From NCBI GenBank assembly GCA_946613195.1, contig CAMOFE010000006.1:1-35834 (forward strand): a DNA stretch of 35,834 nucleotides. Reading direction: 5' to 3'. This stretch comes from an uncultured Alphaproteobacteria bacterium (GTDB lineage Bacteria; Pseudomonadota; Alphaproteobacteria; Rs-D84). Below are positions 26,046-30,427 of this stretch, in pieces (position 1 is the stretch's first letter; each line of letters begins with the position of its first letter). The position numbers and the translations under genes are program-made. Under the pieces are notes generated by a model. It was not told where the DNA came from. It ran no database searches and saw nothing but the letters and a program-made list of their open reading frames with translations.

Positions 26046-26702
26046 CTAAACCGTTTTATCACTTGCATTGCAGAAATGCGCAACTGGGCATTCGGCACAT
26101 TTTGGGCGCAGCGCGCGACAAACATATCGCCCATGCAGTACCATTACATGATTCACAATCGCGTGATATTTTGCAGGAATTTTTTTTAATAATTCTGTTT
26201 CTACTTTTTCGGGCGTATTTGCGTTTTCCCCAACCCATCCATAACGATGTGCATTACGAAACACATGCGTATCAACGCCGATATTTGGCGCCCCCCACAA
26301 CACATTCATTATAACATTTGCGGTCTTTTGCCCAACGCCCGGCAATTTCATCAAGGCATCACGATTATGATATTTTTGTGGAAATTTATAATTAATATCA
26401 TCTGCCCCATCATCATTCATCAAAACGCACGATAACCCAATTATTGAACGTGCCTTGTTATTAAAAAAAGAAATTTGCGAAATATATTTTTTAATCCCAA
26501 ACTCCCCCAGCGCAACCATTTTTTCAGGCGTGTCGGCCACCGCAAACAACGCAGGTGTTACTTCGTTAACCTTTTTATCGGTTGCCTGGGCAGACAAGAT
26601 AACCGCCACAGCAAATGTAAATTCGTTTGTGTGCAATAATTCTGTACGGATATCCATATTTATGGATTGTGGTACACAATCAAAATATTGCTGTGGCGTC
26701 AT
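26046..26702 (-). CDS. nth: Endonuclease III
   Basis: ILSAQATDKKVNEVTPALF; LPGVGQKTANVIMNVLWG; VDTHVFRNAHRYGW; Fe-S motif CRALRPKCAECPVAHFC. Confidence 0.92.
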   Translation of the reverse strand: MTPQQYFDCVPQSINMDIRTELLHTNEFTFAVAVILSAQATDKKVNEVTPALFAVADTPEKMVALGEFGIKKYISQISFFNNKARSIIGLSCVLMNDDGADDINYKFPQKYHNRDALMKLPGVGQKTANVIMNVLWGAPNIGVDTHVFRNAHRYGWVGENANTPEKVETELLKKIPAKYHAIVNHVMVLHGRYVCRALRPKCAECPVAHFCNASDKTV

Positions 26703-27076
26703 TGTGCTTTTAACTCTTCTAATTTAGCATCGCAAAATTCATTACAAAACGGCTGACAATCTTTTTCAGACTCGTCTAATTCATAATCAAGATGTTTTAT
26801 TTCATTACTAGAAAAAGTATAATGTTTGTCGCCGATTGTTATATTACAATCACACAACCATTCTAATGTACTGGTACAAGATGCAATTGTATCTAAATTA
26901 CGACAATGCGCCGTGTATTCTGTTCTGCAATTTTTATCCGTTTCTGTTGATTGTGTTTGCCAATAACAGAAACGAATACCAAACAATGGCACGCATTTAT
27001 TAGTATTATACATATAATACCCAACAGCGACCACAAAACATAATACTATAACAATCAACAACAAAAACTTTTTCAT
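26699..27076 (-). CDS. Small N-terminally anchored Cys-rich extracytoplasmic protein
   Basis: TM MKKFLLLIVIVLCFVVAVGYYMY followed by ten Cys; ATGA overlap with nth; 3 nt after ileS stop. Confidence 0.65.
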   Translation of the reverse strand: MKKFLLLIVIVLCFVVAVGYYMYNTNKCVPLFGIRFCYWQTQSTETDKNCRTEYTAHCRNLDTIASCTSTLEWLCDCNITIGDKHYTFSSNEIKHLDYELDESEKDCQPFCNEFCDAKLEELKAQ

Positions 27077-30000: not shown

Positions 30001-30121
30001 GATGTCCCAACTTGGTTGCGTTCAGACTTTTATGAAAAGTATCATTTTCCCGCCAAAACGCGATTATTTCATGTTCCAGTGCTGTAAAGTCTGCGCGTGG
30101 TTCTGTTTTTGGGTATGCCAT
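27080..30121 (-). CDS. ileS: Isoleucyl-tRNA synthetase, eukaryotic-like (type 2)
   Basis: [78 protein letters not shown] AGGAG. Confidence 0.95.
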   Translation of the reverse strand: [1013 protein letters not shown]

Positions 30122-30149
30122 ACTGTATTTCTCCTATTTTTAAGTTATT

Positions 30150-30176
30150 AAATAAAAACGGGCGCGATATGCGCCC
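30150..30176 (-). terminator. Leader terminator (candidate attenuator) upstream of ileS
   Basis: Minus strand GGGCGC-ATATC-GCGCCC-GTTTTTATTT, between leader ORF and ileS SD. Confidence 0.75.
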
Positions 30177-30202
30177 CAGCGACCGCCAAAGCGCAGCCCG
30201 GG

Positions 30203-30235
30203 TTATTTAATAATAATTATTGTTACCTGTTTCAT
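30203..30235 (-). CDS. Candidate ileS leader peptide MKQVTIIIIK
   Basis: Minus strand ATG AAA CAG GTA ACA ATA ATT ATT ATT AAA TAA; four consecutive Ile codons directly before the attenuator. Confidence 0.7.
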   Translation of the reverse strand: MKQVTIIIIK

Positions 30236-30245
30236 TACATTGGGC

Positions 30246-30274
30246 ATTTTATACAGTATTTATTACAAAATCAA
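30246..30274 (-). promoter_or_regulatory. Candidate sigma70-like promoter for ileS leader
   Basis: Minus strand TTGATT - 17 nt - TAAAAT; predicted start about 5 nt before the leader ATG. Confidence 0.5.
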
Positions 30275-30275
30275 C

Positions 30276-30301
30276 AAAAAATCGCCCTGTGGGCGATTTT
30301 T
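30276..30301. terminator. Bidirectional intrinsic terminator
   Basis: AAAAATCGCCC-TGT-GGGCGATTTTT. Confidence 0.75.
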
Positions 30302-30427
30302 AGAGCAAAGAGCACAGATAAAACAGAGCACAAATATTGTGTGCGTATTATGCGCACAATATTAAATTGATGCGGGCATACGCCCGCATTCATTATTTGT
30401 TATCTGTGCTCTTTGCTCTGTGCTCTA
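30302..30427. repeat. Heptamer-rich inverted repeat flanking two palindromes
   Basis: AGAGCAAAGAGCACAGATAA at 30302-30321 and its exact reverse complement at 30400-30419; inner AATATTGTG...CACAATATT and ATGCGGGC-ATAC-GCCCGCAT. Confidence 0.7.

Follow-up and report, generated by a model that had tools for sequence, protein, structure and literature searches.

Ribosome-mediated attenuation of transcription is textbook knowledge, and the pheST synthetase genes are known to be under such control. In Escherichia coli pheST, the leader pheM encodes a peptide rich in the cognate amino acid in front of an aminoacyl-tRNA synthetase gene, while the trpL leader has a layout of three hairpins and its control codons lie inside hairpin 1. 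Among the Alphaproteobacteria, the transcript of the Sinorhizobium meliloti attenuator trpL (rnTrpL) has been mapped to start with the leader ATG (PMC7298713, PMC10117765), and in Bacillus a leader peptide has been predicted 5′ of hisS paralogues in a treatment of his leaders that leaves ileS unmentioned (PMC2965389). The isoleucyl-tRNA synthetase gene itself is preceded by T-boxes in several Actinobacteria (PMC1262725).

We consider it highly likely that a ribosome-mediated transcription attenuator controls ileS in the window, i.e. the whole analysed stretch of 35,834 nucleotides, which is contig C6 of assembly G000 (816,817 bases). The locus combines a short leader ORF with consecutive codons matching the downstream gene and a mutually exclusive antiterminator and intrinsic terminator with one strand in common, as in attenuators of the trp/pheST type. 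With pheM it shares the cognate-amino-acid-rich leader peptide before a synthetase gene and a terminator whose predicted stability falls with a ribosome at the cognate codons, although amino acid, gene and sequence are different and the terminator follows the leader stop after 49 nt in pheM versus 26 nt here. The three hairpins of trpL have their counterparts in hairpin 1, antiterminator and terminator; unlike in trpL, hairpin 1 of the ileS leader begins just after the stop codon and is consequently reached only by ribosomes at the last Ile codons. The S. meliloti trpL leader is likewise an alphaproteobacterial attenuator, with the start at the leader ATG mapped there and predicted for the ileS leader, but it controls trpE(G) and has trans-acting products. 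The Bacillus hisS/hisZ leader peptide equally precedes a synthetase gene, though in Firmicutes and for histidine, whereas the Gram-positive T-boxes tie ileS expression to tRNA-Ile charging by direct tRNA-RNA recognition and involve no leader peptide.

All elements which the first-pass annotation had proposed, from the promoter-like site to the Shine-Dalgarno sequence and start codon of ileS, are present on the minus strand (Table 1).

Table 1. Features of the ileS leader region and the adjoining genes in the window.
Feature	Positions	Strand	Remark
Intrinsic terminator of the upstream gene	30277..30301	-	directly 5′ of promoter-like site
Promoter-like site TTGATT-N17-TAAAAT	30246..30274	-	-10 end ~10 nt 5′ of leader ATG
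Leader ORF MKQVTIIIIK	30203..30235	-	stop 30205-30203
Control codons AUA AUU AUU AUU (Ile x4)	30209..30220	-	run of 4 typical among relatives
Competing hairpin 1, right after leader stop	30175..30202	-	anti-antiterminator or pause hairpin
Antiterminator 5′ arm GCGCUUUGGC	30185..30194	-	starts with GCGCUUU (30194-30188), 8 nt after stop
Antiterminator 3′ arm GCUGGGGCGC	30171..30180	-	strand in common with terminator 5′ arm
Terminator hairpin GGGCGC-AUAUC-GCGCCC, then GUUUUUAUUU	30160..30176	-	stem covariation among relatives
U-rich tail GUUUUUAUU	30151..30159	-	T-run columns invariant in alignment A1
ileS Shine-Dalgarno AGGAG	30131..30135	-	sequence
ileS, type-2 isoleucine--tRNA ligase, 1013 aa	27080..30121	-	ATG at 30121
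Small Cys-rich protein, probably membrane-anchored; possible operon member	26699..27076	-	position between ileS and nth
nth (endonuclease III), possible operon member	26046..26702	-	Pfam HhH-GPD and EndIII_4Fe-2S

A scan of named genomes for the combined pattern of leader end and antiterminator arm gave 58 matching stretches, nearly all of them from Alphaproteobacteria or proteobacteria labelled as uncultured, with sample names that in many cases refer to gut or rumen, and Candidatus Enterousia onthequi is among them; the source of the window is a Candidatus Enterousia-like gut alphaproteobacterium of the order Rs-D84. The encoded IleS scores 748 bits against NCBIfam TIGR00392 (cut-off 621.4) and carries the Pfam domains tRNA-synt_1, Anticodon_1 and a C-terminal DUF5915, the last of which we take to be associated with the type-2 form, so that the protein appears to be of this type. 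In NCBIfam, MupA and MupB rank next behind ileS itself, and the protein is only ~31% identical to most other sampled Alphaproteobacteria. For the Cys-rich protein no match was obtained in Pfam or NCBIfam, and the top NCBIfam match of nth, TIGR01083, stays with 193.9 bits under its cut-off of 211.7. From the tight spacing it is plausible that both genes are co-regulated with ileS.

Ile-rich leaders are the rule upstream of ileS in the window's relatives. In a sample of ileS upstream regions from 147 genomes of the window's genus and family, 145 hold a leader with an uninterrupted run of three to five Ile codons near its end, followed after 8-10 nt by GCGCUUUGGC, GCUGGGGCGC and a terminator of the form GGGCGC/GCGCC(C)-U5; the unit is absent from the two remaining regions, L152 and L166, which have tRNA genes directly upstream. 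The run comprises four Ile codons in 134 leaders, three in 8 and five in 3, and in nearly all it is separated from the stop by one Lys, Arg, Glu, Gly or Gln. The conservation of Ile run and hairpin in relatives, set beforehand as a point on which the proposal was to stand or fall, thus extends across the family. Among the 140 leaders ending in [I/V]III plus one residue, departures from the majority base in the four codons number 83 at third versus 3 at first or second positions, three leaders have Val in place of Ile1, and the sole third-position G sits in a Val codon, so that no Ile has been turned into Met. Judged from this bias, selection in the leader codons is on isoleucine and not on the DNA alone. 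The distance from stop to antiterminator arm is kept at 8-10 nt in 112 of 114 leaders while the intervening bases vary.

AUA was considered as a special sensor codon and dropped: 143 of 145 leaders contain it, yet a share of 35% among the Ile codons of the complete genome G003 would already give ~82% per leader, and the leaders are not independent, being related. As a separate observation, a penultimate Arg is encoded by AGA in 30 of 34 leaders, AGA making up 6.8% of the Arg codons in G003, which probably reflects drift from AAA to AGA or a requirement for purine-rich RNA.

The two alternative structures of the RNA are conserved together. The first-pass annotation had paired GCGCUUU with GGGGCGC; this antiterminator exists and covaries, but with seven pairs it had been drawn too short, as it is a 10-bp hairpin, GCGCUUUGGC-GGUC-GCUGGGGCGC (30194-30171, minus strand). 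In alignment A1, which comprises 114 distinct leaders, 95.3% of the antiterminator cells are paired and 4 pairs are changed on both sides, a covariation reached by 0 of 500 shuffles, which take the leaders as unrelated; the four outer pairs are intact in 114/114 rows, two of them with compensatory changes. The terminator stem is paired in 97.5% of cells with double changes at 3 pairs (reached by 2 of 500 shuffles, leaders again taken as unrelated). Hairpin 1, with 84% of cells paired and weak covariation, competes with the antiterminator, and its core is compatible with the terminator; the mean energies of hairpin 1, antiterminator and terminator are -9.3, -14.7 and -12.2 kcal/mol, respectively. 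In L144, L165 and L197 the three arms read GCAC/GUGC/GCAC and in L051 ACGC/GCGU/ACGC, the change of one arm being answered in both others so that both alternative stems are kept; from the differing substitutions we read these triple changes as at least two independent events. The anticipated compensatory changes are therefore found in both stems alongside the synonymous changes of the Ile codons, and on this comparative evidence the unit is not due to chance. A second pairing suggested earlier, CGGGC (30200-30196) with GCCCG (30163-30159), is present in the window, but was rejected as a conserved part of the switch since relatives in A1 usually carry other bases.

Pairing probabilities were calculated on growing transcripts of the 114 leaders and the window with the nucleotides under the ribosome masked, in the main setting 14 nt counted from the start of the A-site codon. 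At column 57, before the terminator arm is made, the antiterminator is favoured without a ribosome (mean 0.71). With the transcript end in the terminator 3′ arm (column 68), the mean values for antiterminator/terminator over the 114 leaders were 0.40/0.57 without ribosome, 0.37/0.60 with the ribosome at Ile1, 0.62/0.36 at Ile3, 0.71/0.16 at Ile4, 0.77/0.02 one codon further on, and 0.20/0.68 at the stop; the window itself gave 0.05/0.95 without ribosome, 0.74/0.25 at Ile3, 0.92/0.06 at Ile4 and 0.00/0.98 at the stop. Stalling at the Ile codons is hence predicted to leave GCGCUUU free, as had been claimed, but the predicted effective sites are Ile3 and Ile4, where the ribosome covers the start of hairpin 1, and not the whole run. 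That the finished peptide leads to termination is reproduced at a footprint of 14-15 nt; the ribosome at the stop covers, however, no more than the beginning of the antiterminator arm, so that the outcome hangs on the exact footprint: with 12 nt the values at the stop are 0.65/0.11, not clearly terminating. Given a footprint of ~14-15 nt, the position of the ribosome at Ile3/Ile4 versus the stop is predicted to select the structure.

Once complete (column 70), the terminator is favoured in every state, with means of 0.74 at Ile4 and 0.96 at the stop, and in the window 0.99 with the ribosome at Ile4. Folding of both conformers thus reproduces the predicted switch on the growing transcript, with the complete terminator winning at equilibrium, so the switch must be a kinetic one. 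A comparable calculation on full E. coli leaders lowered the terminator for trpL at Trp-Trp-Arg and for pheM and pheL at the Phe codons, less sharply for thrL at the Thr codons, and gave no response for hisL, a known attenuator.

The attenuation logic of the trp/his/ilv type invoked at the outset is thereby supported by conservation, covariation and masking on the growing transcript. Transcription would begin near the leader ATG, and a ribosome would trail RNA polymerase into MKQVTIIIIK, translation of the leader and its coupling to transcription being presumed. When Ile-tRNA is scarce, the ribosome would wait at the third or fourth Ile codon, cover the post-stop sequence of hairpin 1 and leave GCGCUUUGGC free to pair with the emerging GCUGGGGCGC before the 3′ arm of the terminator exists; with the antiterminator formed, RNA polymerase would continue into ileS. 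The antiterminator would have to form first and to hold by kinetic trapping. An early-forming, persisting antiterminator is usual for attenuators. A response to tRNA-Ile charging would be expected of such a leader, and, according to the modelled structures, the switch very probably raises IleRS when charged tRNA-Ile is scarce.

The upstream gene's own terminator and the promoter-like site that follows it indicate that the upstream transcript has no need of the leader terminator, which suggests that the leader is a transcript separate from the upstream gene. The promoter-like motif, found once versus 1.7 times in shuffles, is weak alone. Between upstream gene and leader promoter, the inverted repeats TGTGCGCATAATACGCACA and GATGCGGGCATACGCCCGCAT lie at 30340-30390. 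A simple score called a promoter in 98 relatives' regions, and in these the -10 end most often lies 7 nt (29 regions), 8 nt (18) or 10 nt (13) from the leader ATG. SD-like motifs stand 5′ of the leader in 11/145 and 5′ of ileS in 145/147. From this short gap and the rarity of leader SD motifs, transcription is likely to start within few bases of the leader ATG in many relatives. In others, of which L029, L030, L153 and L175 are examples, a tRNA-Thr(CGT) gene ends ~10-17 nt 5′ of the leader ATG and no obvious promoter is seen between the two; in tRNA-preceded relatives the attenuator may therefore be read from the tRNA promoter, with a terminator that may also serve the tRNA.

Other readings of the same elements have to be weighed. 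The peptide end is strongly conserved and located at the C-terminus, which would also suit an arrest peptide, where the ribosome is halted by its Ile-rich nascent chain or by a small molecule and the same RNA switch follows. We regard this as improbable, because the N-terminal part is variable, the residue after the Ile run varies between Lys, Arg, Glu, Gly and Gln, Val can replace Ile1, and the regulated gene is the exact cognate synthetase, which fits tRNA sensing. Instead of a hairpin switch, leader translation might work by Rho-dependent polarity or by reinitiation at ileS, the latter having been proposed for leader ORFs near structural genes with a distance peak at 10-11 nt (PMC4833913); here, ileS starts 66-89 nt after the leader stop in 143/145 relatives, far above this peak, and has its own SD-like motif in nearly all of them, and terminator and antiterminator covary, so that this route is less probable still.

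Slightly lower again we place an ordinary terminator of an upstream transcript or of tRNA-Thr, with the Ile codons an accident of AU-rich sequence. In its favour, a tRNA T-arm lies within 60 nt 5′ of the leader ATG in 34 relatives; the window, however, already has the upstream terminator (30301-30277) and then the promoter-like site (30274-30246), the Ile codons vary synonymously, and covariation links the antiterminator arm to that of the terminator, which a plain terminator would not need. A T-box or another direct RNA sensor, as regulates ileS in Gram-positives and stands 5′ of the gene in several Actinobacteria (PMC1262725), has next to no likelihood here, since no Rfam T-box matched up to E=10 and the ~85 nt from leader ATG to T-run are too short for one. 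The Rfam model Phe_leader matched with E=0.0007, but on the other strand and with a score under the gathering threshold, and was discarded as chance in AU-rich DNA. Attenuation by the translating ribosome remains the preferred reading.

A covariance model of the unit, R1, was searched against the genomes of the order and a sample of the class. Of the order's 201 genomes, 165 carry the unit according to this model, all within the window's family, where 11 of 13 genera have it. Among 14 ileS upstream regions from four other families of the order there is no such leader, the 385-genome class sample gave nothing convincing outside the order (top E ~0.1), and in the window's own genome no further copy was detected, the second match having E=3.6. 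The complete genome G003 was scanned for short ORFs that carry four or more identical codons and are followed by a terminator and a gene. Of the five entries obtained, the ileS leader alone matches its downstream gene; as attenuators, two Ala runs were rejected for their resemblance to the ends of coding genes, a Val run because it is out of frame within the end of a coding region, and an Arg run for its position before a doubtful 121-aa ORF. IlvC and IlvD are absent from 59 genomes of the genus, the same searches succeeding in 14/14 control genomes, and Rs-D84 genomes have been reported without amino acid biosynthesis (PMC12306168). The genus apparently cannot make isoleucine, and without IlvC and IlvD the switch would act on the synthetase alone and not on a biosynthetic operon.

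A second Ile leader is found in another alphaproteobacterial family, f53 (L379-L405), where 27 of 30 ileS upstream regions have a leader of 13-17 residues ending in Ile-Pro (26 of these 27 in Ile-Ile-Pro). The stop codon of this leader falls within the loop of a conserved hairpin, AUCCC(C)-URR-GGGGAU, after which comes a variable U-run; a related Ile leader lies 5′ of ileS in G250 (L334) of a third family. In several of the (I)IIP leaders, the start region is complementary to nucleotides beyond the hairpin, as AUGUGCAA is to UUGCACAU in L379. Tentatively, and at a little under even chances, alphaproteobacterial type-2 ileS could have gained control by Ile leader peptides on two or more occasions, through a near-leaderless antiterminator/terminator switch in the Enterousia family and through another RNA design in f53. 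If so, isoleucine control in reduced genomes that lack the biosynthetic pathway would be left to the synthetase.

The novelty surmised at first pass holds within the open literature searched, whose coverage of comparative attenuation work is incomplete: it yielded no account of ileS being attenuated through a leader peptide, and the ileS switch would be a case of trp/pheST-type attenuation at a gene for which no such description was found. The unit would be a cis-regulatory RNA without match to any Rfam 15 family, and its more than 140 natural variants form a data set on leader spacing, codon position and competing hairpins. Ribosome-mediated attenuation would extend to isoleucyl-tRNA synthetase, a gene otherwise tied to T-boxes. 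Its hosts have genomes of ~0.9 Mb without isoleucine biosynthesis, and such small genomes are often assumed to be poor in regulation, yet this switch has been kept in most genera of the family.
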